Source: Oscillospiraceae bacterium
GTDB taxonomy: Bacteria > Bacillota > Clostridia > UBA1381
Assembly (NCBI GenBank): GCA_015068545.1
Contig: SVKH01000002.1
Span: 1 to 53,479, forward strand
Direction: 5' to 3'
DNA: 53,479 nucleotides
The position numbers and the translations under genes are program-made. Below are positions 725 to 21,419 of the stretch, piece by piece. How positions within the stretch are numbered: position 1 is the first letter of the stretch; every line of letters begins with the position of its first letter. The notes beneath the pieces were generated by a model. That model had not been told where the DNA came from and ran no database searches. It saw nothing but the letters and a program-made list of their open reading frames with translations.

Positions 725-1297
725 TTATACTAATTCAAACTCTGCAAAGAATTCAGGACGGTGGAAATCAGGCTCCTCCCATGTGATATCCGCAAAGCAT
801 CCCCAGTGAGGATGGTTGGTTGCATCGCCGCATTTATAGAAGTTACCTCTTAGCTTTGCGCCCTTGCCATGCTTGTAGGTTGGAAAGTACTTTTCTAAAA
901 ATTCTTTTGGAATCTTGTAGTCAATTTCCCATCTGTCATCAAAAATCTGAGTTTTTGCGCCCAAAGTGTCTATTTCCTTCGGATCAATCTTGACAGATTC
1001 CTCTCTGCAAGTAGAAAGAGATACATAAGTCGCTCCGTTTGGGTTTACTTCCACATTCATATAATGGTTGTCACCCTCGGCAAACGCCATATATATTTCC
1101 ATACAGCTATCCTTGTAAACGTCGCTGTTGTGCTGAGTTTCTACTGCACGCAGCTCTGTTTCGTAGGATACATAATGCACGTTGTATCCCTCATCATCAT
1201 ATCCGATAGTGATAATTGTTTTAGGATGCACACCGCTATCCTCCCAAGGATAGTGAGTTATTTCAAAGCTTGATCCTTCTCTTGTAATCTTATTCAT
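725..1297 (-). CDS. Carbohydrate-binding family 9-like (CBM9-like) protein, cytoplasmic
   Basis: 190 aa, no signal peptide; DSCMEIYMAF...NPNGATYVS...W.EPDFHRPEFFAEFEL pattern of CBM9-like domains. Confidence 0.65.
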   Translation of the reverse strand: MNKITREGSSFEITHYPWEDSGVHPKTIITIGYDDEGYNVHYVSYETELRAVETQHNSDVYKDSCMEIYMAFAEGDNHYMNVEVNPNGATYVSLSTCREESVKIDPKEIDTLGAKTQIFDDRWEIDYKIPKEFLEKYFPTYKHGKGAKLRGNFYKCGDATNHPHWGCFADITWEEPDFHRPEFFAEFELV

Positions 1298-1307
1298 ACT
1301 TTTCTCC

Positions 1308-3203
1308 TTAATCCTCGTATTCTACTTCTGCTATGTCTATACCTCTGCCCGGCACACGAACATAAAATGTATCATCGGTGCGTCTTAGAGGATATCCGTC
1401 AGGCTTTGTGATAATTTTGATATTCTTGATTTTTCTCTTTGATTTTACCTCAGGAAGTACATAGAAGTATTCCTCGTTACCTACAAATATCTTGGAAGTT
1501 TTTTCGCCTGTTTTTACTTCCAGAACATCACATTGTCCCTTTCCATGTCCTAGGGAAATGTTTGCATTTTCGTTAATTTCCTCTACTGCCTTTTCCATTA
1601 TTTCCTTAGATACAGGAGTGATTTCAAGAGGTCTTGGCCATCCTGATTCAACAGGATTTGTTATCTTGGAAACATCAACTGTGGCGATATCAGAGACATA
1701 GATAACCTTTCCGCCCTTATAGTTTTTAATAACTTCCTGCTCCTTTTGTGGCATTAGGGAGAAGTTTGTAACCACTATATCCCCTGTAATTCTATCAATG
1801 TTATCAATATGTACTATTCCGCCTATCTGAGCGCCATATTCCATCAGCCATGCCAACCACAGCGCGCTGTGCATATTACCGTTTTCGATAAGCGCGGTCA
1901 TTTCATTTTCCATTCTATTATCCGACCAAATGAAGGTTGCAGATACATTCTGTGCGTTTTCTGTGTAACCATTGTCTATTGAAAGACGTACAAATTCCCA
2001 GTCCTGCTCAGATAACGCATCACCAAGACAGAAGTGAGGACCATTTGTAATAGGAGCCCAAGCTCCGTCTGTTTTATATAGTTTTGCGAAATTCACCGCT
2101 GCTGCTCTTTGCATAGCCACAGGCATATGATGAAGAACATTCCACTGCTCCTGATTATCCCATATCATAAACAGCGGAGTTATTGCCATATCTCCAAGCT
2201 GTGCTCTTACGCACATAAGGTTTGCGGCAAATTCGTGATGGATAAGCCTTCTTCTTTCATATCCAAGCTCGTAATTGTGGTTGTCCTCGTATCCAAGGAT
2301 AGCAAGCGCAGAGGATGTGTCCTCTACTACAAAGTAGTCTGCTCCTGCCAGCTTTATGTATCTGTAATCGGTACCGTAACGGTAAAGAGCCTCAAGGGGA
2401 TCTCTTGTCCATGCGCTGTTTACCGCCACCTCAAGTCCTGCATCTTTTAATCCGCGAATGATTTTAACAAGGAATCCACCCCATCTTCTGCGGTAGAATT
2501 CTATCCATTCCTTACGCTTTTCCGCACGGATATATGCAACCTTATCGGTAACATCTGCCGGAATCTGTATGCCGGACTGTTCTATGGTATCGTCTGAGAA
2601 ATCCGCAAACCATATAGCATTTCTCGGTGATGACAAACCATCCGCCACCTGAACTCCGTCAAAGCCATAATCCTTACAGGTTTCTACAAGCTTTTTAAGA
2701 AGGTAATCTTCGTAATATGTACCGTCTGCAAACCTCTTTATCATAAATATACCGGTTTCATGTTCATCGGGATTGGTACAGCCTGCAATTAGCTCAGGAT
2801 GAAGCTCAGTAAACTTTTTAACTCCCTCAAGCTCCGGCTCAGCATCCATATCGAAAAAGCTGGCAAAAACCTTTATGCCGTGCTTTTGAAGCTCTGCAGT
2901 CAACTTCTTTAGCTCGTAGTTTGTCCAGTCCTGACGCATACGGTCATCATTACATGGATGACCTGCATAGGAGCACGCATAAGCAGGAAGAAGGTATTCT
3001 TCTTCCATACCTCTATGGGTATTAACAAAGTCTACACTTGTTAAGTGAAGAGATATTCTTTGTGGCACAAAGCCGATTTTTTTAAGATAGTCTGCAACGC
3101 CAAGGTCTTCCTTATCTTTGTCAAAGCCTATAAGCTCTATCCAGATTGAACTGTAAAACCCTTGTTTTTTTGTGCCAAAAAAGGCACCTCTTTTACCGTA
3201 CAT
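1308..3203 (-). CDS. Putative glycoside hydrolase-like TIM-barrel protein
   Basis: 631 aa, no signal peptide; barrel-like segments (GIKVFASFFDMDAEPE, YGFDGVQVADGLSSP, GADYFVVEDTSS); family not recognised. Confidence 0.5.
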   Translation of the reverse strand: MYGKRGAFFGTKKQGFYSSIWIELIGFDKDKEDLGVADYLKKIGFVPQRISLHLTSVDFVNTHRGMEEEYLLPAYACSYAGHPCNDDRMRQDWTNYELKKLTAELQKHGIKVFASFFDMDAEPELEGVKKFTELHPELIAGCTNPDEHETGIFMIKRFADGTYYEDYLLKKLVETCKDYGFDGVQVADGLSSPRNAIWFADFSDDTIEQSGIQIPADVTDKVAYIRAEKRKEWIEFYRRRWGGFLVKIIRGLKDAGLEVAVNSAWTRDPLEALYRYGTDYRYIKLAGADYFVVEDTSSALAILGYEDNHNYELGYERRRLIHHEFAANLMCVRAQLGDMAITPLFMIWDNQEQWNVLHHMPVAMQRAAAVNFAKLYKTDGAWAPITNGPHFCLGDALSEQDWEFVRLSIDNGYTENAQNVSATFIWSDNRMENEMTALIENGNMHSALWLAWLMEYGAQIGGIVHIDNIDRITGDIVVTNFSLMPQKEQEVIKNYKGGKVIYVSDIATVDVSKITNPVESGWPRPLEITPVSKEIMEKAVEEINENANISLGHGKGQCDVLEVKTGEKTSKIFVGNEEYFYVLPEVKSKRKIKNIKIITKPDGYPLRRTDDTFYVRVPGRGIDIAEVEYED

Positions 3204-3218
3204 AGCTCTATTCCTCTC

Positions 3219-4100
3219 TTATATATCTTTACCCCGTACACCGTACGGGATGTTGTATTCTTTTATGATAGAGACCAGTTTTTTAAACTGCTCCTCTGAT
3301 GGTTGTTTGAAGTGATAATATTTATACTCCATTCCTGCCAAGGCGTATTTTGCGCCTGCCATTTCGTTGTATGGCAAAAGTTCTATGCTGACAAGATTTT
3401 CCGCATTTTTTACAAATTCGCAGGTGGCTCTCATGTTTTCTTCATCAGAATTTACGCCATCTATTACAGGTATTCGCACTGTAAACGGCACGCTTGACGC
3501 CATAAGCTGTCCGGCATTTTCCAGAATAAGCTCGTTAGTAACGCCTGTGTATTCCTTGTGCTTTTCACTATCCATTATCTTCAGGTCGTAAAACACAAAA
3601 TCCACTAGCTTCAATACTCTTGCGAAATCCTCTTTTTTGCCATAACCCGATGTTTCTATAACGCGACTGAGCGCAGAGGTTTTCTCCAGTACTTCGCATA
3701 AGAATTCGCTTTGCATCATAACCTCACCTCCGCTGAAGGTAAGTCCGCCTTTGCAGGCTTTTAAAAGATGCTCATATGACAGTAATTTCTTTGCAAGGTC
3801 CTCCGATTCCCATTCCACACCGCTTATTCGTATCAGATCCCTTGGGCAGTTGTACATACACTCACGACACAAAACACAGCCTGTTTCCTTATGAGTGCAG
3901 ACATTGGTGCATATTCCGCAGTGCAAGCATCCGTTTGGACTTTTTACTATACGCCTTTCAGGATCCCAGCCTTCAGGATTATGACACCAGCGACACCTTA
4001 GCGGACAGCCTTTAAAGAACACGTTTATACGCACTCCGTCCCCATCATGTACCGCAAATTCCTCAATTGAAAATATTGTACCTTTCATGTGTGATGCCAT
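3219..4100 (-). CDS. Glycyl-radical enzyme activating enzyme (radical SAM)
   Basis: CPLRCRWC (CxxxCxxC) plus two ferredoxin-type clusters CLHCGICTNVC and CVLCRECMYNC; RBS AAAGGAG before ATG. Confidence 0.92.
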   Translation of the reverse strand: MASHMKGTIFSIEEFAVHDGDGVRINVFFKGCPLRCRWCHNPEGWDPERRIVKSPNGCLHCGICTNVCTHKETGCVLCRECMYNCPRDLIRISGVEWESEDLAKKLLSYEHLLKACKGGLTFSGGEVMMQSEFLCEVLEKTSALSRVIETSGYGKKEDFARVLKLVDFVFYDLKIMDSEKHKEYTGVTNELILENAGQLMASSVPFTVRIPVIDGVNSDEENMRATCEFVKNAENLVSIELLPYNEMAGAKYALAGMEYKYYHFKQPSEEQFKKLVSIIKEYNIPYGVRGKDI

Positions 4101-4165
4101 AACTCCTTTCAGCTAAAATAGATGCTCTCTTTTAATCCTATGCAAACCACCAAGCTACCGAATAT

Positions 4166-4503
4166 GGTAAAATGCAGAATGCTCCACTCTTTCCTCGGTT
4201 TGAGGCTTGGAAATTTCGCAGGTTGCCACCTTAGGTAGCGACAGCGTACATCGGTACTGTCAAACTGTCAAAGTGGTAAATTGCAGAACGCTCCACTCTT
4301 TCCTCGGTATGAGGCTTGGAAATTTCGCAGGTTGCCACCTTGAGTAGCGACGGCGTACGTTGACACTATCAAACTGTCAAAACGGTGAAATGCAGAAAAC
4401 TCCTATAACCTCGGTTTGAGGCTTGGAAATTTCGCAGATTGCCACCTTAAGCAGCGACGGCGTACGTTGGTACTCCGAGCTGAGAAAGGTGGTAAGATGC
4501 GGA
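4166..4503. repeat. Three tandem ~109-bp repeats plus a partial fourth, between GRE and activase genes
   Basis: Unit starts GGTAAAATGCAG (4166), GGTAAATTGCAG (4275), GGTGAAATGCAG (4384), GGTAAGATGC (4491); core GAGGCTTGGAAATTTCGCAG(G/A)TTGCCACCTT at 4202, 4311, 4418. Confidence 0.95.
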
Positions 4504-4515
4504 AGAATCCAAGTC

Positions 4516-6567
4516 TCACACCCCAAACTCGTGACGTTGGATAATTTGATCCTGATAGCATTTATCCATTTCTACAAAGTGACCACTCCATCCCCAAACG
4601 CGGACGATAAGGTCTTTATATTCCTCAGGATTTTCCTGTGCTTTTCTCATCTTCTCGTTGTTTACAGAATTGATTTGTAGCTGGTGGCCGCCTTCCTGAA
4701 TGTAGGAACGAACAAGAGTTGCCACCTTTTCAATAGAATCATCGCTGTTAAATACAGATTCGTGCAATTCAAATGTCATAGGGCCGCCGTTAACTGCATT
4801 TACAAGACTTGCCGGAGCAAATCCCTTTAATGCTGAGAATGGGCCTGCATTTGTGATGAAGAGTGACGGTGAGAAGTTTGCAGGAAGTGATGCTCCCTTA
4901 TCTCTTCCATCTGCTGTTGCGCTAAGGGTTTCTCCATGCCAAACATAGTACATGGCAGAACCTGTACCGGCACGGTAAATTCCGCCTCTTTCATTTTTGA
5001 TACCTTCCAGTGACTTTGCAAAAATATCAAGAACCTGATTTCCTATCTCGTTTGCGCTATCGTCTCTGCCGACTTTGTCAGCTTCGTTACGAAGAATATA
5101 TCTAAGCTCCTTATCTGTTTCAAAGTCATCTTTAAGACCTTCCAAAAGTCTTTCCTTGGTAATCTTGCCCTGCTTGAATATAAGGCTGTCGATGGCCGCT
5201 ATCTGGTCTACTGCACAAGAGTATCCTGTGCCATGAAGTCCGTAGTTATTGTATTTTGAGCCTTCGGAGAAATCTCTGCCTGCTTCTAGCGCCCCAACCT
5301 GCAACAATGACTGCATAGGTGATGGCTCTATAAACAAATTCTTGTGGGATGCTGTTATTTCCAGTGCCTTTTCCCTTACTGCCTTTGCATAAATTTCCAT
5401 AAACTCCTCTGTTGAGTTTATGTCATTCAACTGAGTTCTTATAATGTTGTTTGCAATATCAGCAAGAGGCATTGCACCAATGTTCGGGATATCCATAGCT
5501 ATATTTGGAACTATAAACTCCCAGCAAGCTGCAACGGAGTATTCTCTTGCATCCTCTATATCGTAGCCCACCTTAACTAGTCCCGGAATTACGATATCGT
5601 CATTTGCGTATTGTGGGAAACCTACTCCGATTTTTGTAAGCTCGGTACCCTTTTCGTACAGGTCAAGAGGTGTGTTTTTGTCAACACGCAGGTTAATCTT
5701 AGGATCTATCATACGAAGCTCACGGCTTGCTTCCATACTCATATATGTAAGCTCATTCACCGCAGAAGATCCGTCTCTCTTAACTCCGCCAAGCATCATG
5801 CTCTGTCCGTTATCGCCCCATGCCAAGCTCCAGTATAGGTCAGAGTCTCGGTTAAAGGACAGGAAGAAATCCTCAATCAGGTCAAGGGCTGTTTCTTCTG
5901 TAAGGATACCTCTTTCAATATCATTTTTATAGAATGGATATGCCCATTGGTCAAATCTGCCCACAGTGTTGTGGTAGCACCATGATGCCCAATGTGCAAA
6001 GTGAACAATTCTGAACAGTTGGAAAGCTTCTTCCAAAGTATCCGCACCGTGTCTTATAATGCGTCTTAAGGTCGCTGCATCATCACTCTTTCCTTGTCTA
6101 TCCATTTCGTCTGCATACTTGTCAGCAAATTTCTCGACAGCGTCAATAGTTCTGTTTGTCATGGCAACATACTCAGGATCTGCCTTTTTCCCGTTTTCAA
6201 GACGTGCTCTTCTTCCTTCTAAGCCTTCCTTCAAAACTGTATAGTAGTCCCATGCAAGGTTTGTAACCTTTCCTCTTTCGTGTACCCAGTGAGTCTTTTT
6301 AATTTCTTCCATTTCACCTTCTGCATAGATGTCCGGAAAGTCGATTATGGTACGCATACCCTGAATTCTGGTGTCTTCTAAAAGCACAGGCTTTTCCATG
6401 TCTAGAAACATCTCTAGTCTTACTGTGGCTCTTTCCATATAAGATAGGCTACGATCGTTAATCTTTGACAAGACTTCTGCTCTTTCCGCTTCTGTCAGGT
6501 CTCTTCTTAGTTTTCTGTGTTCTCTTGATTTAATCATATCAAGCTGTCTTTGGATTCTTTCTTTCAT
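4516..6567 (-). CDS. Glycyl radical enzyme, pyruvate formate-lyase-like superfamily, eliminase-type active site
   Basis: 683 aa; candidate catalytic Cys in VAACWEFIVPN (CxE); C-terminal glycyl loop RVWGWSGHFVEMDKCYQDQIIQR; activase encoded downstream. Confidence 0.88.
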   Translation of the reverse strand: MKERIQRQLDMIKSREHRKLRRDLTEAERAEVLSKINDRSLSYMERATVRLEMFLDMEKPVLLEDTRIQGMRTIIDFPDIYAEGEMEEIKKTHWVHERGKVTNLAWDYYTVLKEGLEGRRARLENGKKADPEYVAMTNRTIDAVEKFADKYADEMDRQGKSDDAATLRRIIRHGADTLEEAFQLFRIVHFAHWASWCYHNTVGRFDQWAYPFYKNDIERGILTEETALDLIEDFFLSFNRDSDLYWSLAWGDNGQSMMLGGVKRDGSSAVNELTYMSMEASRELRMIDPKINLRVDKNTPLDLYEKGTELTKIGVGFPQYANDDIVIPGLVKVGYDIEDAREYSVAACWEFIVPNIAMDIPNIGAMPLADIANNIIRTQLNDINSTEEFMEIYAKAVREKALEITASHKNLFIEPSPMQSLLQVGALEAGRDFSEGSKYNNYGLHGTGYSCAVDQIAAIDSLIFKQGKITKERLLEGLKDDFETDKELRYILRNEADKVGRDDSANEIGNQVLDIFAKSLEGIKNERGGIYRAGTGSAMYYVWHGETLSATADGRDKGASLPANFSPSLFITNAGPFSALKGFAPASLVNAVNGGPMTFELHESVFNSDDSIEKVATLVRSYIQEGGHQLQINSVNNEKMRKAQENPEEYKDLIVRVWGWSGHFVEMDKCYQDQIIQRHEFGV

Positions 6568-6588: not shown

Positions 6589-8727
6589 TTATTTTATACT
6601 GATTTTTCCCGTACCTGCGATTTCCTTTGTTTCGCCTGCAAATGTAAATTCTGCGCTCACACCCTCCGGAATCCGGTAAGAAAATTCGTTGTTTTCAAAT
6701 TTAACTGCTATATCGCCCTTTGGCGTTGGTACCACACATTTAAACCTTTTATATGTTTCAAAATCAGGTTTTATAAGGACTTTATCAAATCCTTTTTCGA
6801 TAGGCTTGATGCCTGCAATGCCCATTGGCAAAAGCACATTTGCAATAGCTGACCAACCGTGACACCAGCTTACATAGCTAGGTGTCTTACCGGTATATTC
6901 TGTGACTTTGTCATATTCCTCACCAAAGCAACATTCATTCAGTGTTGTTGCTCCGGCATCCAGCATTGTAGCAAAATACTTCATCAGCCTTTCGGTCATT
7001 CTTGCAGTTTTGCCCATATTTATATCTCGTTCGCCAACATGGTACTGAATCTGCATATGCTCTGTCTTATCGTAAGCTTTATGCAGATAATCATCTGACA
7101 AAAGTCCTGCTACCTTTGGCTCGATATCGGCTATCATATCGGTATACTTCTTTTCTGATGCGCTGTCCCCCGCAAGCTGAGCTGCAAGATGAACCGTCTT
7201 TAAGGACATCAGATACAGGTCATTAAGGTATGGATCCACACCTACAAACCGGTTAAGCTCCACCATCCACAGATCACCTAGAGGATTTTCCGGTACATCG
7301 ATAAGTCCCTCCGAATTTGTCTTGGAGATTAAGAAGTCCACTGCCTTTTCCAGACTTTCCTTAAACTCAAGGACAAACTCCCTTTTGCCGGTATAGTAAT
7401 AATAGTCGTAAAACCCTATCACATACCATGCCACATAGTCCCACAGCATAGATGTGCCAACGCCGTAAACCGACGGAACTCCGCCACAAGGTAGCTGTAC
7501 CTTTTTCGCTTCACGCATGGAGAACTCAAAAAGGTCGGTATCGGCAAAGCTGTAATAGTTGATTAATGCGCACATTCTCGCATCACCTATCCAGAAGAAT
7601 CTGTCTCGCTTTACCGCATCAATAAGGTATTCCTGCATACAGTAGTGTAGAGTTCTCTCTCCTGCCTCGTAAAGTGCGTTCATCTTCTCGTTTTCACACT
7701 CAAAGTATCCACGTCTTGCCACAGGATAAAGGGAGGTTTTTACCGAGAAACCGCTTGCCAAAACCGGTGCGGTACTGTCGAAAAACTCTACCCGCACATA
7801 GCGGAAGCCAACTCTCATTCTTGATTGGAACTCATGCTCGCCGGCAAATACTCTGTATTCCTCGCGGAGCATTTTATTAGTTAGTATTTCACGAACCTGC
7901 TCTCCCATGGCTTCGTCCACGGTTTCGCCATAGTACAAGCGGAAGGATGTCGGTTTTTCCGATTTTATTTTCAACCTGAAGTATCCTACTACCTCTATGC
8001 CCATATCCACTATAAAGCTTGGGCCTGTAAATCTTTCGGTCTTTTCTATGTAAATGCCGTCATCTTTTTGGACAGCGTTATTTTCGATTATTGTATATTC
8101 TTTATGAACTTTATCAAGGTGAGGAGTATTCACTCTCTTAACATATTCCTCGCCCATAATTTCTGCCACTTCTTTTTCTACCACATACTCTACCGGCTTT
8201 GCTGTGTAGAATGGAGATGCACAGCCCTTTGGCACACTGCCGTAAAAGAAGTTTGCTGTGGCAAGGGTAGGAATAAGTATATCAGGATCGGTACCCGGCT
8301 TTGTCCACCACTGGTAATCGCCTGCCGCAGACATATCAAGCTCGGCGGCATTTTCCCATGCGGAATCGTCATAATCCTGATCAAGCCATCCCCATTTTTC
8401 GCATTCTGCGACTTTCCAGTCTTTGTCGGAAACTACAACGGTCTCTCCATCCACTACCATTTCAAAGGCAAAGCCACGGTGTCCGCAATGGTTTATGCCA
8501 TGCACCGCCAGTGAGTTTATTCCCTCTATTACAAAAGGAGTTACGTCATAGTCACGCACATTGCACCATTCATCTATGGACGCTACTATTCTGCCGTTCA
8601 CAAAAAGCTCATACCCTGTGTCTACGAACACTCTTATGTATGCCTTTTCCGGCTTTTTTGAAAGTTCAACTGTCCTTCTGAAAAAACCCTCATTAGGATT
8701 CTTTCCCCATATATTTTTAAGTTTCAT
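6589..8727 (-). CDS. Alpha-L-rhamnosidase-like (GH78-type six-hairpin) glycosidase; ORF extends to 8781 but start at 8727 preferred
   Basis: RVFVDTGYELFVNGR, DYDVTPFVIEGIN, KRDRFFWIGDARMCALINYYSFAD, SYVSWCHGWSAIANVLLP motifs; SD GGGAGGG upstream of ATG at 8727; the -10 box lies too close to the 8781 start. Confidence 0.75.
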   Translation of the reverse strand: MKLKNIWGKNPNEGFFRRTVELSKKPEKAYIRVFVDTGYELFVNGRIVASIDEWCNVRDYDVTPFVIEGINSLAVHGINHCGHRGFAFEMVVDGETVVVSDKDWKVAECEKWGWLDQDYDDSAWENAAELDMSAAGDYQWWTKPGTDPDILIPTLATANFFYGSVPKGCASPFYTAKPVEYVVEKEVAEIMGEEYVKRVNTPHLDKVHKEYTIIENNAVQKDDGIYIEKTERFTGPSFIVDMGIEVVGYFRLKIKSEKPTSFRLYYGETVDEAMGEQVREILTNKMLREEYRVFAGEHEFQSRMRVGFRYVRVEFFDSTAPVLASGFSVKTSLYPVARRGYFECENEKMNALYEAGERTLHYCMQEYLIDAVKRDRFFWIGDARMCALINYYSFADTDLFEFSMREAKKVQLPCGGVPSVYGVGTSMLWDYVAWYVIGFYDYYYYTGKREFVLEFKESLEKAVDFLISKTNSEGLIDVPENPLGDLWMVELNRFVGVDPYLNDLYLMSLKTVHLAAQLAGDSASEKKYTDMIADIEPKVAGLLSDDYLHKAYDKTEHMQIQYHVGERDINMGKTARMTERLMKYFATMLDAGATTLNECCFGEEYDKVTEYTGKTPSYVSWCHGWSAIANVLLPMGIAGIKPIEKGFDKVLIKPDFETYKRFKCVVPTPKGDIAVKFENNEFSYRIPEGVSAEFTFAGETKEIAGTGKISIK

Positions 8728-8785
8728 AATCGCCCTCCCAAGAAGCACAAAATCCATGTATAATTCTTTCATTACATACAATTAC

Positions 8786-8973: not shown

Positions 8974-11763
8974 TTATTTCTGCCACATTACATCGTAAAC
9001 AATCTTAGCAGCTTGAGCTCTTGTAAGAGTTGATGTGCTGTCCGCAAGAGTTACGTAGTTTGTCTTGCCACGATATGAACGGCCAAGAATTGTATTAACG
9101 ATACCCTTTGCCTCAGTAACAGTCAGAGTATTGTCCGGATATACATATCTCCTCTTTATAAGCCATCCATCCTCTGTCACTTGTATTGCACCAAGTCTAT
9201 ATGCAATAGCCATTTCTGCATAACCTCTATCGCTCGTTCCTAAGTCATTTATAGAATTTGAAAAGGTTTGAGTAATAGCTCTGTCAGACAACTTCAGACG
9301 AAGTGCATTTATAAGCCAGATACAGAAGTCCCTTCTGGTCACATTGCTTGTTGGATTAAAGGCACTTCCTGTTCCTGTCCATACACCTGTGTACATCATT
9401 ACATTTTCGATTTCCTTTTTGTACTGGTTACTTGCAATGTCTGTGTATAGTGCAGGCATTGTTGCAGAGCCTAGGGAAATCGGTGCAATCTGAGTAGCGG
9501 TAGACGCATTGTCTATTACAATTTCGTAGTTCATAGCCTTATCAGATGCTGCCATGGTGAACTGCTTTCCGCCGGAAACAGATGTAACTGTCTTTGCAGC
9601 ACCACGCTTACCTGATGATGTAAGCGGATATACTGTGATATTGTTATTTGTCTTGATTACAACTGTACCTGTGATTGGCTCTACTAGTACCGGACCTGTT
9701 CCGGCAGTTGTCATAACGATATTTCCTGAGCTATTATCATATACAGCGCCTGTGTTTCTTGATTCACCAAGAACTGTCAGAAGGTTGCTGGAGCTTTGGT
9801 AAAGAGGCTTATTCTCTACTGATGAATATGATACTGTTGCGAAAGGATTATCAATAGTCACCTTAATATCGCTAAGCTCGATAGTCTGACCGCTGATACG
9901 ACCTGTTACAGCCTGTGTCTTTGGTGTATTTATCTTTACGATATTGTTAGTTGTATCGCTTAGGATTTCACCTGTTGTAGAAAGGAACTTGCCGCTTGAT
10001 GCTCCAATCTTTGCTTGATAGATAGCTTCGCTGTCATTTAGCGGATGCTCACCGGTAGGACCATTATATGCTTCGTCAAATACAACACCTGTTTTTCCAA
10101 CAAGACCTATTTGCTTCAAAAGCTTATAGTCATCATCCGAACCGGTCATCTTCTGGTCGTAGATATATGGATCTTTTCCTACAAAACGAATTGGGTAGAA
10201 GCCCTTGTTTGATTCGCTAACGTCTTCTCTTACAAACATTCTTGCTGCATTTGGAAGACCTGCCAAGTTTTCAGGGTTTTCACCAAAGCCAAGCATTGTC
10301 TTTACAAATGTGTTTGTCTGGATGTTTGCGTAATCCTGCTGATTTATTCCACAAGCCCAACAGAACGCGAACGGATGCATACCGTTAAGTGATGCAAATG
10401 CAGGCATAAGAACCATTGACTCTGATCTGTATCTGTCAACAGCTGAGTGGTTCCACTCTGTTATTGTATGCGGAAGTCCGTATACGTTATAAGCAAAGCT
10501 CTCGCCCAGGATACCATATCTTGCATCAGCCATCTGTGCAATCTCCGGACTATCCATTGTGGTGCCATCTTTAAAGTCGTGGCTGGAGCCAAGAGCTGTG
10601 TATGAGTGGTGGTCAACGAAGTCTGTTTCAAGGTTTGAATACAAAATCTGTGTTGGTCTGCCTGTGTTTGTAAAGGCTGTAACACCTGTGATACGACACT
10701 TTACACCAAGGTCATTTCTCAGGTAGTCTATCATTTCTTCAAAGTACGCCTTTTGTACTTCGTCTAGGAACTGAGCACTGTCTACTCGTCTTCCTTCTGA
10801 TATAGCGGTAAAATCCCAGAACTCAATATCGTCATGGAATATACGAACTGTTCCGCTTGCCATACTTTCTCCGGATTGAAGTCCTCTTCCGGCTGTTTTG
10901 TTAGGCTCCATGCATCTTGCCCAAGCTGTAGAAAGCTCAGAATCGCTTGCATACTTTTTCTTTAGCCATTCGTTGAACATTGCCTGAAGCTCTGCTTCGT
11001 AATGCTTTGAACCAAACTGTGATGACGCAACATTAGTGTTGATAAAGTCTTCGTTCTTGGTATCTATCAAAGCAAGAGCCGGATCGTCCTTGATTCTAAG
11101 ACCTGTGTATGGGTTGTAGAAATTAAGCATTTCTGCTGCAATTTCTTTTGTGATTTGCTTTAGATCTTCATTGAAGTAGCTGTACTTCTTAAAACCGTCA
11201 TTAAGGTCTATAAGGTTAGAAAGCTCTTCAAATCTCTGGTCTGCAACCGGTGGTGCTGAAATTGTAAGGTCAAGAAGATAGTAGACACCGCGCTTCTTAA
11301 GCTCGCTCATAAAGAAGCACATTCTGTCCATTATATCGTCTTTTAGCATTCTTCCGCCATCGGATTTTCTGCCCCAGATACTTTCTCTGTAACCGGATTC
11401 TACAAGGTGGAAACGAACTATGTTGTAACCGCTTTGAGCAATTCTTGCTGCCATTTCTTTTGCGTGTTCATAGTCTGCATAAGGAAGAGCCAGTGATACG
11501 TTCACACCGTTGAAGCGGATATCGGTACCATCTTCAAATACAAAGCGTGTGCCGTCTGTTTCTGTTAAGAATCCGTGCTTTCCTGCCGGTGCATCAAGAA
11601 TGTTTGATGCATCAAGCGCTGTTCCTGCTACATCTGCTGCCTTCGGAAATTCATACACGAACCAGCTTGATGTATCAGGGTTTAAATCATTTTGCGCTGC
11701 AAATGATGTGCTCATTCCTGCCATAAGAGATACGGCAAGTAGTAAAGATATTATTTTTTTCAT
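8974..11763 (-). CDS. Secreted GH5-like (clan GH-A) glycosidase with C-terminal SLH-type region
   Basis: Signal peptide; PAGKHGFL...DGTDIRFNGVN; candidate acid/base in IDTKNED and nucleophile in TITEWNH; C-terminal YTDIASNQYKKEIENVMMY... SLH-like. Confidence 0.75.
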   Translation of the reverse strand: MKKIISLLLAVSLMAGMSTSFAAQNDLNPDTSSWFVYEFPKAADVAGTALDASNILDAPAGKHGFLTETDGTRFVFEDGTDIRFNGVNVSLALPYADYEHAKEMAARIAQSGYNIVRFHLVESGYRESIWGRKSDGGRMLKDDIMDRMCFFMSELKKRGVYYLLDLTISAPPVADQRFEELSNLIDLNDGFKKYSYFNEDLKQITKEIAAEMLNFYNPYTGLRIKDDPALALIDTKNEDFINTNVASSQFGSKHYEAELQAMFNEWLKKKYASDSELSTAWARCMEPNKTAGRGLQSGESMASGTVRIFHDDIEFWDFTAISEGRRVDSAQFLDEVQKAYFEEMIDYLRNDLGVKCRITGVTAFTNTGRPTQILYSNLETDFVDHHSYTALGSSHDFKDGTTMDSPEIAQMADARYGILGESFAYNVYGLPHTITEWNHSAVDRYRSESMVLMPAFASLNGMHPFAFCWACGINQQDYANIQTNTFVKTMLGFGENPENLAGLPNAARMFVREDVSESNKGFYPIRFVGKDPYIYDQKMTGSDDDYKLLKQIGLVGKTGVVFDEAYNGPTGEHPLNDSEAIYQAKIGASSGKFLSTTGEILSDTTNNIVKINTPKTQAVTGRISGQTIELSDIKVTIDNPFATVSYSSVENKPLYQSSSNLLTVLGESRNTGAVYDNSSGNIVMTTAGTGPVLVEPITGTVVIKTNNNITVYPLTSSGKRGAAKTVTSVSGGKQFTMAASDKAMNYEIVIDNASTATQIAPISLGSATMPALYTDIASNQYKKEIENVMMYTGVWTGTGSAFNPTSNVTRRDFCIWLINALRLKLSDRAITQTFSNSINDLGTSDRGYAEMAIAYRLGAIQVTEDGWLIKRRYVYPDNTLTVTEAKGIVNTILGRSYRGKTNYVTLADSTSTLTRAQAAKIVYDVMWQK

Positions 11764-11776
11764 AATCCTGTACCTC

Positions 11777-14700
11777 CTATAACTTAATTACTTCAGAACG
11801 TGGGATGAGCTTTAGCTCGTCGTCCCAAACATAAATCTGAATTTTATCTCCGGAAGGAGCTTGCACATCATTGAATGTAACAGTGTTTGTTCCCTTTGCA
11901 AGAGATTTTTCTACTGAGTTTGCATATACTATTCTGCCGTCTGTGCCAAGCACTACGAAGAATACTCTTGTACCAACTACTTCCTCTTCTGTAAGAAGCT
12001 CAACTGTAACAGATGTTGCTGCTGTGATATTTGATGTTGTAACAACCTCTCCGTTTTGGTTTACCGGAGATTTTACAATCTGTACAGGGTTTTCACTTTG
12101 CGGAGATGATACAAATCCCATCGCTTCACTTTGTGTTGAACCGCTTACTACAAGATAGTTGATCTTAGCCATAAAGTCAACTACAAATGGACCTGTGTAC
12201 TGTGTAGATGATGTACTTGGTGTAGTTCCGTTTGTTGTGTAGTAGATAGTAGCGTCTGGTGTGTTTGGTGTAAGAACGCATCTTGTGAAACCGTCTTCAT
12301 CAATCATCCAGCTTACTGTTATGTGTAGCGGCTCCGGCTCGCTGTCATCAGTTGCCTTTACCCAGATATATTTCTTCTCGGTAGCATTCTGGCGAAGGCT
12401 GTCAAGTGAGAAGCTTGTTGTACCTGAACCATAGCTATCATAAGATTTTGATGAGTTATAGTATGAGTTTACTACATCACCCTGCATTACCTGACCTGCA
12501 ACAGCACCATTCATGCTGTCATTATAGCTCATATCATAGTCAGAATATGAATTGTCTACGTTACCCTCGATACTTCCTGCGATACCGCCGTGGTATACTG
12601 TGCCGTAATCTGTTACGTTTACAGTACCTTCAAAGCATGAGTCAACAACTTCACCCTTCATTCTTCCTACAACACCGCCGGAAACTTCCATAGGATATCC
12701 GCTTTCGTCATTTTCGGTGGCAACCAATGCCATCTTCGAATTAGAGCCTGAAACTGTTCCTTCTGCCTTACCGCAGATACCGCCTACTGTTGTGCTTACA
12801 TACTCACCTGCTGCATTTACTGTAAGTGTACCTGTTGTATGACAACCCTTTACTGTTCCTTCAAAATCACCTGCGATACCGCCGGCTGATGCCACCGGAG
12901 AGGCAATTGTAATTGTTCCATTAAATACGCAGTTTTCTATTACTGCATTGTTTCTGCCGTATCCTGCGATACCGCCTGCGTACACGCCCTTGCCCCTTGT
13001 TTCGTTTAGGGTGTACTCTGCGCCAGTTACGGTCAGATTGTAGATTCCGGCACCGTCAACGTAACCGAACAATCCGTTATATTCGTTTCCGTTTCCGTTC
13101 ATCTTAAGGCCGGAAAGTGTGTGTCCGTTACCCTCAAAGGTTCCGGTAAATGCGTTCGCCTTGCAGTTTCCTATCGGTGACCATACACCTGTCATTTCGA
13201 TGTCATTCATCAAGCGATAGTGCTTATCCGGCTGATAACGTATTCTGTTAAGCTCTGCCTGAGTTGTAATTAGATATGGTGATGCAGCGGTTCCGTTGCC
13301 TTCACCGAAGAACTCATGTTCACCAAGCACAGGCTTGATGGTAGGATAATCTGAACCCGATTCAAACACCCAGAATGTGTCAAAATCCCAGTTTGCATAA
13401 GTTTCCTTACTCTTCAGATTATTTGTTGTTACCTGATAACCCCCCTCACTTGTTGTTGCTTTAACTCCATAACAATCCTTAACATATCCGCCGTTGTTGT
13501 ATGTAATACCGTCTATGTTTATGGAACTTGCATTAATTGTTGCCTTTGAATATGATGTTTCGATACTTCCTGTATTAGTACCCGCTAATCCCGCAGCATT
13601 GTAACCCTTTACAGAACCACCGATATTGTAGCAGTTTTCGATTGCGCCTGTGTTTTTACCTGCTATACCACCTGTGGTAATTCCGCCGTCAATAGTGCCT
13701 ATAAGAGAAGAGTGCGAACCGGACAGACATACAAATCCTCCGTCATTTACACCAACAACACCGCCAAAGTATCTTTCACGACCATTAAGGTCTACATAAT
13801 ATATACTTGATTTTGAATCAGTTAGCGTACCTTGTGAGCTCTTCATTTTACTTCCTGTTTTGCTAACTGCACGGCTAATTATTCCGCCTTCGTTATAACC
13901 ACAGATTCCACCGAATACGTCCGCAGAAACTTCTACGCTGTTGTGGGTAAAATAGCTGTTTAGTATTGAGCTTGATTCTACATTTGAAACTGTGCCCTTG
14001 TTGTATCCTACGATACCGCCGCCGTATGCCTTGTAAGAATGGTGCAGATTGTTTTTGATACCACCGGAAATTTCTGTGGTATTTGATATACAGCCATCGA
14101 TAGTTCCGTAGTTGTAACCGCAAACACCACCAAAGTCAGCAAAATCGAAACGGTAGGAATCGTCAGAACCTTCGATAACAGACTTTACACGAGCCTGATT
14201 TGCATTGGAGTTAGTTACTGTTCCGCCGTTACTTCCAACTACACCGCCGGCATAAGCATAGCCCATGCTGGTAGCATATTTTGACCATACATAAATCTCG
14301 CCTGAGCCGTTACAATCACTGATGATACCGCCTTTTCTGTTATCACCTACGATACCGCCGCCGGAAGCTGAGCCGTAATCGCAAGTTGCTCTTATTAGCG
14401 TAGCATACACGTTTGTACAGCCTGTTACTGTACCTTCGTTAAGACCAGCTATACCACCTGAGTAACAGTCTGCCCTTGTTGGGACTGCACTGTATGTTGT
14501 AGTGTTACTAGCCTGAACTGATACTTCGTTGGTACAGTTTGATATTGTACCCTTGTTGTATCCGCAAACACCGCCGTTTGCACTAAAAAATAGCTGATTT
14601 TCAACATTCAGGTAACCCTGAGTAGTACAGCCGGAAACGTTTCCTTCGTTACATCCCACAAGTATTCCTGTGAAGTTTGGACAAGAGTCTATCCAGTGTC

Positions 14701-15106
14701 CTATACCTGCATCCCAACCTTCTCCCGTTGGAACAGCTGCTTCTACAATAAGGTCTTTTATAGTACCCTTATTGTATCCAAACAGACCAACGTAAGGAGT
14801 TCCTGCGTTGAATGTTCCCTGATAATGCGTTGTCAGGTTACTGATTGTCTTTCCGTTTCCGTTGAATGTACCGGCAAAAGGATGCGCCTTTGTACCAACC
14901 GGTACCCAGCTTACGCTCTCCATATCCAGGTCACTTGCTAATGTTACTGTACTGCCGGCAAAGGTGTCACCGGCATTTACCTGATTTGCAAAGGCTACAA
15001 ATCCTGCTGTATCACTGATAGTCAGATCAGCAGCGTTTGCAACTGTGTGCAGTGACATTAAAAGACCCAGTGAAAGAAGTAAGCTGAATTTTTTTAGTGA
15101 ATTCAT
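11777..15106 (-). CDS. Secreted GLUG-repeat protein with chitobiase/hexosaminidase C-terminal-like domain
   Basis: Signal peptide; many GG(I/V)(C/A)GYNxGTIxxC repeats; PDATIYYTTNGTTPSTSSTQYTGPF. Confidence 0.8.
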   Translation of the reverse strand: MNSLKKFSLLLSLGLLMSLHTVANAADLTISDTAGFVAFANQVNAGDTFAGSTVTLASDLDMESVSWVPVGTKAHPFAGTFNGNGKTISNLTTHYQGTFNAGTPYVGLFGYNKGTIKDLIVEAAVPTGEGWDAGIGHWIDSCPNFTGILVGCNEGNVSGCTTQGYLNVENQLFFSANGGVCGYNKGTISNCTNEVSVQASNTTTYSAVPTRADCYSGGIAGLNEGTVTGCTNVYATLIRATCDYGSASGGGIVGDNRKGGIISDCNGSGEIYVWSKYATSMGYAYAGGVVGSNGGTVTNSNANQARVKSVIEGSDDSYRFDFADFGGVCGYNYGTIDGCISNTTEISGGIKNNLHHSYKAYGGGIVGYNKGTVSNVESSSILNSYFTHNSVEVSADVFGGICGYNEGGIISRAVSKTGSKMKSSQGTLTDSKSSIYYVDLNGRERYFGGVVGVNDGGFVCLSGSHSSLIGTIDGGITTGGIAGKNTGAIENCYNIGGSVKGYNAAGLAGTNTGSIETSYSKATINASSINIDGITYNNGGYVKDCYGVKATTSEGGYQVTTNNLKSKETYANWDFDTFWVFESGSDYPTIKPVLGEHEFFGEGNGTAASPYLITTQAELNRIRYQPDKHYRLMNDIEMTGVWSPIGNCKANAFTGTFEGNGHTLSGLKMNGNGNEYNGLFGYVDGAGIYNLTVTGAEYTLNETRGKGVYAGGIAGYGRNNAVIENCVFNGTITIASPVASAGGIAGDFEGTVKGCHTTGTLTVNAAGEYVSTTVGGICGKAEGTVSGSNSKMALVATENDESGYPMEVSGGVVGRMKGEVVDSCFEGTVNVTDYGTVYHGGIAGSIEGNVDNSYSDYDMSYNDSMNGAVAGQVMQGDVVNSYYNSSKSYDSYGSGTTSFSLDSLRQNATEKKYIWVKATDDSEPEPLHITVSWMIDEDGFTRCVLTPNTPDATIYYTTNGTTPSTSSTQYTGPFVVDFMAKINYLVVSGSTQSEAMGFVSSPQSENPVQIVKSPVNQNGEVVTTSNITAATSVTVELLTEEEVVGTRVFFVVLGTDGRIVYANSVEKSLAKGTNTVTFNDVQAPSGDKIQIYVWDDELKLIPRSEVIKL

Positions 15107-15247
15107 AAATACATCTCCGTTCTTTTATGGAATTTTATTCCATTTTTTTATTTTTTCTAACTTGTTTTAGATAGGCGAAAACACGGCAATGGGATTTCCG
15201 CGTAGAAACCCCTTTCCGTGCCATTATATATCGCCACCCAGTTTACA

Positions 15248-18200
15248 TTATTTCCAAAGAATATTATAAACTGCTATACACAAATCTCCTCTTGTAAGAT
15301 TTGCCTGAGGATTAAATGTATTTCTGTTTTCTGTGTATCCTAACCTTATCATCTCATCAATAGATGATTTTGCGTATGATGATATCTCATCATAATCGCT
15401 ATAAGATACTGTTTCTCCCGGATTCTTTGTTCGTTTCTTGAGTGATTTATCCAGTGCGTTCTTAAGCACTACAAAGAAATCTTCTCTTGATACAGGCTCA
15501 TCCGGACGGAAGCTTCCGCTGGCATCACCCTTTACATAGCCGTTTACATAGGCTGCAACTGCTGCTTTATAGTACGGGTGAGTATCGTCTATATCTGTGA
15601 ACGGATTTTCTGTTTCGCCAGCAAAACCAAGTAACGTATTGATTAGACTAACAGCCTGACCACGACTTACAGATTGCTCCGGAGCGATACGTCCCGGTGC
15701 TACTTCCTTAACATATCCTTGAAGGAATGTTCTTTCTATTTCCTTCTTGTATGGTTCGTATTCGCCAAGGTCTGTGAACAAGTCACCAAGATTTACTTCC
15801 TTTATAAATGAAATCTTTTCATTTTCCGGGTTATCCTGTGCCTTGCTTACACGAACTATTTCGTAGTTCATAACCTGATCTTCAATAGAAGTAGTGAACT
15901 TTGTATAGCCTTCTTCGGTTCGCTCGGTACTGATTTCTGCCTTTCTTTGTCCGTCATATCCGATAGAGTATACCTTGTATCTGTTCTTGTTCTTGATTGT
16001 GAATGTACCTACAATTGGTTCAATTATCATAGGACCTTCACAGTTTGACAAGAATTCTGTACAGGTTTCGTTCATAGTAAGAGTGATAGGTCTTGCATCT
16101 CCCACAAGAGTTAGAAGCATGCTGTCTGTATTATGAATATTTTCCGTTTCTGACAGTGATGACAATGTAACTGTTGAGAACTCATTCTCAACTTCGAAGA
16201 TTACGTCGTTTAGTTCCACCCTGTCTACAAAACCTGCGGCAGCCTGAGTATTTTCTGTATTGATTAGGTACAATCCCTCATTTACATCAAGCATTATTTC
16301 GTCTGTATGAGAAATATATCTGCCGGTCTTATCACCATGGAGCTTCATCTTTGCAATCTCGTTGTCGTTTATGGATTCGTCATATGCAACATTGTCATAT
16401 AAAGCTCCTGACTTACCGCTCCAAGCAAACGTAGGATCTAGCGTAATAGTTTGATTTGAGCGGTGGTATACCTCTTCGCCTCGGAATCTCATAGGATAGA
16501 AGCTCTTAGTAGCAGGAGTGATGTCTCCTCTTAAATACATTTGCGCAATAGACGGGAACGCATGAACAGCTTCCGGTCTATCCATCAAGGAGTGCTGGTT
16601 AAGTGGGAATTTTTCACTATCCTGCTCTGCCACTCTGGAATTGTATTCACAAGTGTGATCCCAAACGAACAGTACAGGTCCCCAGTTATGGAATGCTCCC
16701 CAAGCTCCCATCATTAGGTTAAGCTCTGAACGGTACGGATTTGGCATACCTGCATCCCATTCTGTTTGCAAGTACGGTATTCCGTATGTATCACTTGCCA
16801 CAAATACCTTAAAGTTATGTAGGTTTCTATCCTTTACCGTTGGTGCAGGAGTTCCACTCACTTTTGTTCCATACTGCAAATGCTCACCGTTACCTGTTAG
16901 CAAGTAGAAGTAACTCTGCATAGAAATGAAGTCGTTTTGCATCATATTTGAGTAGTGACTTGGTCTATCCTCATAGCCTGCCGTAAACAGGGTTGATCCC
17001 TGTAGCATAGCACGAGGCGCCCATTGCCTTACCGTTTCAAATCTTTCCTTAAAGTTGGTTTCCTGCATATCTGCAAGGAATGCAACGTTATCAAGATGAC
17101 GCTTATCGTTAAGTCTCTTACGCTTAGCTGCCGCATAAAGCTTTACTGTTCCTAAAGTCTGGTCTTCATCCTCTTCCAGTGCCATATTGTCACTTAAGGG
17201 ATCTGCCCATGCAGCCTCTAGGGCTGCTCTTGTAGGGTACTTTTTAAGTAACCATTCATTGTACAGCTTGTTCATTCTAGGATAGTAGTAATCCCATTCC
17301 TCGAAGTTGGTAGCCATAAAGATACCACTTTCGTTATAAAGGGAAGCCCATAATAGGCATGGATCCTCGCCGATTGTCATTCCTGTATATGGATTGTAGT
17401 AGGAAAGGATGTTTTCTGCTATCTTGTCATTTAGCTTTATAACCTCTTCGTCAAAGAAGTTAGGACCTCTCGTCGACATTCCAAGCTTTTCTTCATCCTG
17501 GAAGTTGTTGTCCTTCCATGTTGTTCCGGCTGTATTTGTAAGGTCCATACCAATGTATATACCTTCTTTTTTCAGACAGTAGATGAAGTAACAGAAGCGG
17601 TCCATGAATCTTTTTGAAACATATCCGGATCTTCTGGTAGTTCCGCCAAGGTTATCTACGCCGGCATATATATCTGAACCCATCTGCGGAATATGGAAAC
17701 GACAGGTATTAAAGCCCATCTGAGCTATACGTTTTGCATTCTTTTCCGCTTCGTCATAATCCGGATACCAAGCACGGTAGGAAATGTTAAGTCCCCAAAC
17801 ATTAAAATCTGTTCCGTCATCAAAGACAAGGTCTTCACCCTTGGCATTGATATAGCCATGCTTTCCTGCAGGGGCATCAAGATATCTGGACATATCTATA
17901 GGTGAACCCGCTATGATATCGGAGTCCTCACATGGGGTATACGCATACCAGCCGGTTGTGTCCGGATTACCGATATCCACCTTCTCTATTTGAGGAAGGT
18001 ATGGACCGGCATCAGTAAGGGTGATACCTGCAATACACAGGTATGGCCCTACACCTATTGTTTTTGCTACAATTTTTGTAATTTTCTTATCCGGATACGG
18101 ATTTTGTACCGGGAAAATAGCAAGAGATACAAGGGATGAATCGTTGTAATCTTCCCAACCTATGATGGCGTTTTCCGATTCTGAGTGTCCCCACCAGTTA

Positions 18201-18721
18201 AATACTTCGTCACCACCGGAAACTGGCATTTCGTGCTCTGTGCCATCCTCATACACAAATGTATATGAGCCTACATCCTCCTTGGCAGAGAGCCATGGTG
18301 ATGCGTGTAGGAAATAAACACCTGCACACTTTTCATTTACCGGCACCTCTACTTCAAGAGGTACGGTCTGGTCATTTTGACCTCTTAGTACTATTGCAGA
18401 CTTTCCGCCATTTGAGTTTGGCTCGATAATATCGAACTTAACTCCAAGGTACTCTGTTACACCTCTGTCCTTGTAGCAGGACATATCGTTAAGAGGACCC
18501 TGATCGGCCCATCCGCCAACACCGTCTGATGCTGCATCGTCGGCAAAGCCTCTGTTTACTACACCTCGCATATCAACGTAGGTGAAGGTTTGCTTGTAGT
18601 TTTTGTACTGGTCTACCATAACCTTTTCAACAGCCGCTGAGGCAGAAAAAGGAATGCATGGTAGCAACGACAGCGTCAGCAACGTTGCTGTTAGCTTTTT
18701 TATAAAGTTTTTCTTTGCCAT
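15248..18721 (-). CDS. Secreted GH5-like glycosidase with three C-terminal SLH domains
   Basis: Signal peptide; PAGKHGYI...DGTDFNVWGLNISY; LYNES and LQTEWD; SLH repeats FTDIDDTHPYYKAAVAAYVNGYVKGDASGSFRPDEPVSRED. Confidence 0.8.
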   Translation of the reverse strand: MAKKNFIKKLTATLLTLSLLPCIPFSASAAVEKVMVDQYKNYKQTFTYVDMRGVVNRGFADDAASDGVGGWADQGPLNDMSCYKDRGVTEYLGVKFDIIEPNSNGGKSAIVLRGQNDQTVPLEVEVPVNEKCAGVYFLHASPWLSAKEDVGSYTFVYEDGTEHEMPVSGGDEVFNWWGHSESENAIIGWEDYNDSSLVSLAIFPVQNPYPDKKITKIVAKTIGVGPYLCIAGITLTDAGPYLPQIEKVDIGNPDTTGWYAYTPCEDSDIIAGSPIDMSRYLDAPAGKHGYINAKGEDLVFDDGTDFNVWGLNISYRAWYPDYDEAEKNAKRIAQMGFNTCRFHIPQMGSDIYAGVDNLGGTTRRSGYVSKRFMDRFCYFIYCLKKEGIYIGMDLTNTAGTTWKDNNFQDEEKLGMSTRGPNFFDEEVIKLNDKIAENILSYYNPYTGMTIGEDPCLLWASLYNESGIFMATNFEEWDYYYPRMNKLYNEWLLKKYPTRAALEAAWADPLSDNMALEEDEDQTLGTVKLYAAAKRKRLNDKRHLDNVAFLADMQETNFKERFETVRQWAPRAMLQGSTLFTAGYEDRPSHYSNMMQNDFISMQSYFYLLTGNGEHLQYGTKVSGTPAPTVKDRNLHNFKVFVASDTYGIPYLQTEWDAGMPNPYRSELNLMMGAWGAFHNWGPVLFVWDHTCEYNSRVAEQDSEKFPLNQHSLMDRPEAVHAFPSIAQMYLRGDITPATKSFYPMRFRGEEVYHRSNQTITLDPTFAWSGKSGALYDNVAYDESINDNEIAKMKLHGDKTGRYISHTDEIMLDVNEGLYLINTENTQAAAGFVDRVELNDVIFEVENEFSTVTLSSLSETENIHNTDSMLLTLVGDARPITLTMNETCTEFLSNCEGPMIIEPIVGTFTIKNKNRYKVYSIGYDGQRKAEISTERTEEGYTKFTTSIEDQVMNYEIVRVSKAQDNPENEKISFIKEVNLGDLFTDLGEYEPYKKEIERTFLQGYVKEVAPGRIAPEQSVSRGQAVSLINTLLGFAGETENPFTDIDDTHPYYKAAVAAYVNGYVKGDASGSFRPDEPVSREDFFVVLKNALDKSLKKRTKNPGETVSYSDYDEISSYAKSSIDEMIRLGYTENRNTFNPQANLTRGDLCIAVYNILWK

Positions 18722-18748
18722 ATAATATTCCTTTCTGAATCCTCCGGG

Positions 18749-21400: not shown

Positions 21401-21419
21401 AATGTTACCTCCACGTTTC

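Follow-up and report, generated by a model that had tools for sequence, protein, structure and literature searches.

The window analysed here, a stretch of 53,479 nucleotides from contig SVKH01000002.1 of an Oscillospiraceae bacterium, carries a minus-strand run of five genes encoding, in order, a GH78-like glycosidase, a glycyl radical enzyme (GRE), an activase, a TIM-barrel-like open reading frame and a CBM9_2 protein, separated by gaps of 21, 415, 15 and 10 bp. Domain matches agreed with the neighbours named in a preliminary description of this DNA, i.e., a GH78-like gene upstream of the GRE and activase, TIM-barrel-like and CBM9 genes downstream. The GH78-like gene (alpha-L-rhamnosidase family; 6589..8781, minus strand) matched Bac_rhamnosid6H (6e-17), Bac_rhamnosid (9e-9) and PDB entry 3cih (4.8e-41), and its predicted Bac_rhamnosid6H catalytic domain scored 62.4 bits for a cut-off of 24.5. 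The activase (3219..4100, minus strand), a radical SAM GRE activase of 293 aa with a CxxxCxxC motif and a ferredoxin-like cysteine cluster, scored 260.5 bits against TIGR02494 (cut-off 174.35). The TIM-barrel-like frame (1308..3203, minus strand) had no Pfam match over the cut-off and no PDB match, and homologues with 55-58% identity were observed beside the GREs of loci L042, L050 and L051. This cluster adjoins the GRE solely in the sub-clade that contains the window GRE (8 loci), and its family occurs without the GRE too; the TIM-barrel protein is therefore no obligate partner. More distant homologues (L210-L214) adjoin proteins resembling, by eye, PTE-type lactonases, amidohydrolases and GH38. 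The CBM9_2 protein (190 aa; 725..1297, minus strand; PF16011, 5.6e-32) is also present in L051 and L053. When the N-termini of the proteins of the run were inspected by eye, none looked like a signal peptide, as had been stated before.

The gap between GRE and activase contains three tandem imperfect copies of a non-coding repeat of about 109 bp (4165..4489, minus strand), partial copies of which were found elsewhere in the genome, on contigs C126, C136, C117, C118 and C9. Since activase and GRE touch or overlap in the close relatives L042 and L051, the repeat looks like a local insertion. A search of the window for known RNA elements found none. Upstream of the GRE run, positions 8974-25892 hold a row of genes for large secreted proteins that carry S-layer homology domains; one of these proteins has fibronectin, cohesin-like and glycan-binding domains.

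The GRE gene (4516..6567, minus strand, ATG start) encodes 683 aa. Both GRE domains passed the Pfam cut-offs, PFL-like with 3.9e-80 and 270.7 bits (cut-off 24.3) and the C-terminal Gly_radical with 4.2e-18 and 66.3 bits (cut-off 22.2), and the two motifs reported initially were recovered exactly. ACWEF (residues 347-351; 5515..5529, minus strand) aligns with Cys433/Glu435 of glycerol dehydratase and holds the candidate thiyl residue Cys348 and the candidate catalytic base Glu350. The glycyl loop RVWGWSGHF (residues 656-664; 4576..4602, minus strand) holds Gly659, the candidate radical site according to conservation. A first structural model built from 8 sequences was poor (pLDDT 68) and was replaced by an AlphaFold2 model from 89 sequences, with a mean pLDDT of 94.0 and a pTM of 0.93. 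Using Foldseek, this model matched glycerol dehydratase 1r8w with an E-value of 1.4e-43, and TM-scores to GREs reached 0.89. The best PDB matches were glycerol dehydratase, 1,2-propanediol dehydratase, PflD, CutC and HypD, all at 20-24% identity. The comparison with known eliminases that had been suggested as a check thus returned a GRE barrel with the glycerol/1,2-propanediol dehydratase fold. By its domains, its motifs, its predicted fold and its partner activase, the window gene is assigned to the GRE superfamily, whose members are oxygen-sensitive radical enzymes.

A search of 61 related genomes recovered homologues of 40-68% identity with frames of 650-690 aa, followed by a sharp drop to about 30% at which other GREs appear; this group is hereafter the AACWE/WGWS family. 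Because members across genomes have frames of this length, the shortness of the window GRE is a family trait and no truncation. The enzyme had been called divergent, which holds against the characterised GREs but not within its own large family, of which it is a typical member. When one genome per species was scanned, at least 551 stretches in species-representative genomes encoded relatives, and the best 80 of these belong to Bacillota, Bacteroidota, Verrucomicrobiota, Spirochaetota, Lentisphaerota and Kiritimatiellota. Cultured carriers among these 80 are Hungatella hathewayi DSM 13479, Parabacteroides chinchillae DSM 29073, Ructibacterium gallinarum and Diplocloster. Within the order to which the window's bacterium belongs, the gene is accessory and patchy (8 of 95 genomes). 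One contig of R. gallinarum (C13, 41-52 kb, locus L204) has three clustered GRE genes, one of them a family member, and contig C56 carries another member. About 15 GRE genes, most without a specific assignment, were observed in the genome of Diplocloster agilis. A search of the open literature for GREs linked to glycosidases, pentoses, PULs or GH127 found no paper on the family, which is apparently uncharacterised so far.

We then aligned 88 members from at least five phyla. A346, A347, C348, W349, E350, N362, R656, W658, G659, W660 and S661 were invariant in all 88, giving a loop consensus R(V/I)WGWS in which the aromatic residue flanking the glycine is Trp and not Tyr. In the other GREs gathered, position 658 is mostly Ala (with G, S or C among the others) and position 660 mostly Tyr or Phe. 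Among the rows having a letter at the position, N103 was conserved in 86 of 86 and H199 in 87 of 87; by contrast, position 103 is His in 37 of the 43 other GREs. Some twelve more polar positions do not vary within the family but do so elsewhere, and the family-specific polar residues are Asn103, Asn200, Asp252, Asn253, Lys290, Asn292, Asn362, Arg532, Glu600 and His628. In glycerol dehydratase, we take Cys433 to be the thiyl residue, Glu435 the base, His281 the acid that protonates the leaving group, and His164 and Asp447 the substrate-binding residues. A profile alignment to 1r8w placed Cys348, Glu350 and His199 (5971..5973, minus strand) on Cys433, Glu435 and His281, and Asn103 (6259..6261, minus strand) and Asn362 (5482..5484, minus strand) on His164 and Asp447. 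The Asp447 position is Asp in 1r8w, 5i2a, 8yjo and 8id0, whereas it is Asn in all 88 members. The retention of the cysteine, base and acid, together with two changed substrate-binding residues and an invariant polar set, is compatible with chemistry of the dehydratase type acting on another, polar substrate.

In a maximum-likelihood tree, the family formed one clade on a long stem (SH-aLRT 100), which also includes a second protein of Ructibacterium, L146, that carries AACWEF and WGWS. CutC (L132), HypD (L133) and sulfopropanediol dehydratase (L141), named by NCBIfam equivalogs, fell outside. Clustering with a characterised GRE of known substrate would have spoken against a new activity, and the window GRE joined none of those included in this tree, a quick search with several long outgroup branches from which YbiW, PflD, HPAD, IslA and BSS were left out. 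Against NCBIfam (up to June 2026), the window GRE stayed far below the cut-off of every equivalog. It scored 271 bits with TIGR01774, the B12-independent glycerol/1,2-propanediol dehydratase subfamily (cut-off 678), 217 bits with CutC TIGR04394 (1050) and 276 bits with HypD NF043068 (1100). Scores were 170 of 1150 and 156 of 1100 bits for the 4-hydroxyphenylacetate and indoleacetate decarboxylase models NF033715 and NF033718, and 55.9 bits for the PFL model (cut-off 994). A named assignment was also sought with 30 members and abandoned, as these matched all GRE models diffusely and no model stood out. Judged by its sequences, the family therefore has every testable feature of a GRE, yet it corresponds to no characterised GRE that could be tested. 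The same wide branch of the tree contains further unnamed GREs (L148/L203 of Hungatella hathewayi, L157, L158, L013 and L015) with SACWEP, GCQEP or GCYEP active sites and WGFS, CGFS or CGWN loops.

Regarding the genomic context, an activase was present within 7 kb of the GRE in 73 of the 87 family loci, and this linkage, the domain scores and the family-wide invariant motifs together exclude chance. Of the 87 family loci, 59 have sugar-type genes within 7 kb, compared with 10 of 35 for other GREs (Fisher p = 1e-4), in a test that leans towards the family, since neighbour clusters were defined on its own loci, and whose controls are mostly window relatives and a few Clostridia. With only Bacillota and the window's relatives, the count was 32 of 58 family loci (p = 0.018). 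The 28 of 87 family loci without a sugar-class neighbour are partly explained by contig ends. In Bacteroidota and Verrucomicrobiota, a sugar porter is adjacent in 22 of 24 loci (best models XylE-like, sugar porter family). A GH127-family gene accompanies 13 of the 19 Bacteroidota loci, some of which also have a GalM mutarotase and a GntR-type regulator. Neighbours in Spirochaetota and Lachnospiraceae include ribose-type ABC importers, LacI, a FucI-like isomerase, an FGGY kinase and a class II aldolase; those in Diplocloster are an FGGY kinase, a DeoC-family aldolase, a YghZ-like reductase and an SMP-30-type lactonase. Clostridial members close to the window lie near GH78, GH4 or GH36-like genes, with GH106 near L079. 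Overall, the constant partner is the activase, joined in Bacteroidota and Verrucomicrobiota by the sugar/H+ symporter.

The adjacent glycosidase, by contrast, varies from locus to locus (GH127, GH106, GH36-like, GH4 or GH78) and many loci have none. The earlier proposal that the substrate is released by the GH78 enzyme in particular is thus weakened. Characterised GH127 members include beta-L-arabinofuranosidases and 3,6-anhydro-D-galactosidases, and because these activities differ, GH127 does not fix the identity of the sugar. We also considered the GRE as a replacement for L-arabinose isomerase and found this unsupported: AraA is encoded by 18 of 40 family-bearing genomes and is absent across the window's genus with or without the GRE.

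The window contains no microcompartment genes, as previously noted. Other contigs of the same genome carry a microcompartment locus (C31 and C94) and, next to another and longer GRE, a fragment of a shell gene (C88). Of 17 genomes with a family member that were tested, seven, Parabacteroides and Bacteroides among them, encode no shell protein, which argues that the family GRE is independent of a microcompartment. Its product is then unlikely to be a volatile aldehyde and need not be encapsulated.

Starting from the observed sequence, conservation, activase linkage and carbohydrate context and from the predicted fold, we consider with moderate confidence that the family is most likely a radical dehydratase (1,2-eliminase) that works in the cytoplasm on a small unphosphorylated sugar. 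The Cys-x-Glu signature of GRE eliminases occurs in 88 of 88 members; it is also found in GRE decarboxylases, so that it does not prove an eliminase by itself. However, taken with the family's own activase, the lack of clustering with tested GREs and the carbohydrate loci, it makes a radical elimination on a sugar that has not been described before the best reading. Non-phosphorylating import, the mutarotase, the retained Cys/Glu/His triad and the many conserved polar residues make an unphosphorylated-sugar dehydratase the most economical form of it. From the preliminary description, which had envisaged an elimination, possibly new, on a sugar, sugar acid or aglycone released by the glycosidase, the elimination on a sugar is retained, in line with the carbohydrate loci, the Cys-x-Glu motif and the separate clade. 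The GH78 link is weak, and nothing in the analysis points to an aglycone or a uronate. Against a dehydratase, the loci have no downstream pathway in common that would process a dehydrated sugar, and the polyol-binding His164 and Asp447 of known dehydratases are both replaced. A precedent for GREs acting on sugar derivatives is given by YbiW and PflD, which act on 1,5-anhydrohexitol 6-phosphates (PMC12441222; PDB 8id0, 8id7).

In the proposed mechanism, the activase would place the radical on Gly659, from which it would pass to Cys348, and the resulting thiyl radical would take a hydrogen atom from a hydroxyl-bearing carbon of the sugar. Glu350 would remove the proton of this hydroxyl while the hydroxyl of the next carbon (or the ring oxygen) leaves, protonated by His199, and return of the hydrogen from Cys348 would yield a deoxy-keto or deoxy-lactone product. 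The family-specific polar residues listed above, from Asn103 to His628, would bind the sugar. In Bacteroidota, exported GH127-type enzymes would free the sugar, the mutarotase would equilibrate it and the sugar porter would import it; in the window, the cytoplasmic GH78-like enzyme may free it. More tentatively, we suggest a non-phosphorylative radical route in which a free monosaccharide from plant polysaccharides is imported and dehydrated by the GRE instead of being handled by an isomerase and a kinase. The enzyme dedicated to this route would be the GRE family found across Bacillota, Bacteroidota, Verrucomicrobiota, Spirochaetota and Lentisphaerota.

The closest fold and profile match being glycerol dehydratase, we asked whether the family could be a divergent B12-independent diol dehydratase, acting on 1,2-propanediol or glycerol at a later step of a deoxysugar pathway. 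1,2-Propanediol can be formed from rhamnose, and rhamnosidase types (GH78, GH106) occur near some members. However, both diol-holding residues, His164 and Asp447, are invariant Asn in the family and the TIGR01774 cut-off is missed by far. In addition, a microcompartment locus is already present in the genome of the window, which also has a longer GRE next to a fragment of a microcompartment gene, whereas the Bacteroidota members tested lack a microcompartment and adjoin a mutarotase and a sugar porter. A small-diol substrate is therefore rather improbable. We regard as unlikely, to a lesser degree, a C-O cleavage of an unphosphorylated anhydrosugar, alditol or glycoside, with ring opening or aglycone loss, in the manner of YbiW and PflD, which open their anhydrohexitol phosphates. 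Some GH127 enzymes release 3,6-anhydrogalactose, and the genes for a kinase, DeoC and an aldo-keto reductase close to L123/L126 would fit a deoxyketose product. Yet the family is no closer to PflD/YbiW than to other GREs (20-23%), PflD has equivalents of His164 and Asp447 without that of His281 while the family shows the reverse, and the presence of a mutarotase points to a free aldose and not to an anhydroalditol.

A decarboxylase or another C-C cleaving GRE on a sugar acid appears very unlikely. Such an enzyme would share Cys-x-Glu with the arylacetate decarboxylases, and the proteins beside the distant TIM-barrel homologues, lactonase- or amidohydrolase-like by eye, could be read in its favour; but of all GRE models the two for decarboxylases gave some of the lowest scores, the transporter in Bacteroidota loci is of a neutral-sugar type (XylE-like) and no second small subunit was seen. 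It is hardly credible that the gene encodes an ordinary pyruvate formate-lyase-type fermentation enzyme in an incidental sugar context, although the Pfam name is PFL-like and public annotations call distant relatives "pyruvate formate lyase family protein". PFL has adjacent cysteines where the family has an invariant Cys-Trp-Glu, the PFL model score is a small part of its cut-off, and the family's distribution is that of a patchy accessory gene.

Many abundant gut GREs have no known function (PMC11574389). The results presented here delineate a whole GRE family with its own invariant active-site and loop residues, carried by hundreds of species of anaerobic bacteria from the gut and elsewhere, including cultured strains, and associated with sugar import and with enzymes that degrade fibre. 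If the dehydration of a free sugar is true, it would be a new first step in anaerobic sugar metabolism and would account for what becomes of some sugars of plant fibre in the guts of herbivores and humans.

Compared with known systems, the unnamed GREs of 650-760 aa (L013, L015, L148 and L157, with GCYEP, GCQEP or SACWEP sites and CGWN or WGFS loops) resemble the family in their wider branch and unusual loops, but share at most about 30% identity with it; Hungatella L148 is the nearest, although on a long branch. CutC, HypD and (2S)-3-sulfopropanediol dehydratase have the GRE fold and the Cys-x-Glu eliminase signature in common with the family, but lie outside its clade, and their equivalog cut-offs are missed by factors of 4-5. 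YbiW and PflD share the GRE fold, Cys-x-Glu and sugar-derived substrates, the family's sugar being presumed. They differ in a 20-23% identity by structural alignment, in the opposite pattern of PflD at the His164, His281 and Asp447 positions and in phosphorylated, PTS-imported substrates, whereas family loci have sugar porters or ABC importers. Glycerol dehydratase from Clostridium butyricum (1r8w/1r9d) and 1,2-propanediol dehydratase (5i2a, 9rco) have a like fold, with TM-scores of 0.85-0.87, and share with the family the equivalents of Cys433, Glu435 and His281 and a dedicated activase. By contrast, at about 23-24% identity the family is about 100 residues shorter, mostly on the N-terminal side, has Asn in place of His164 and Asp447, a WGWS loop and no microcompartment, and is found in a context of sugar import.
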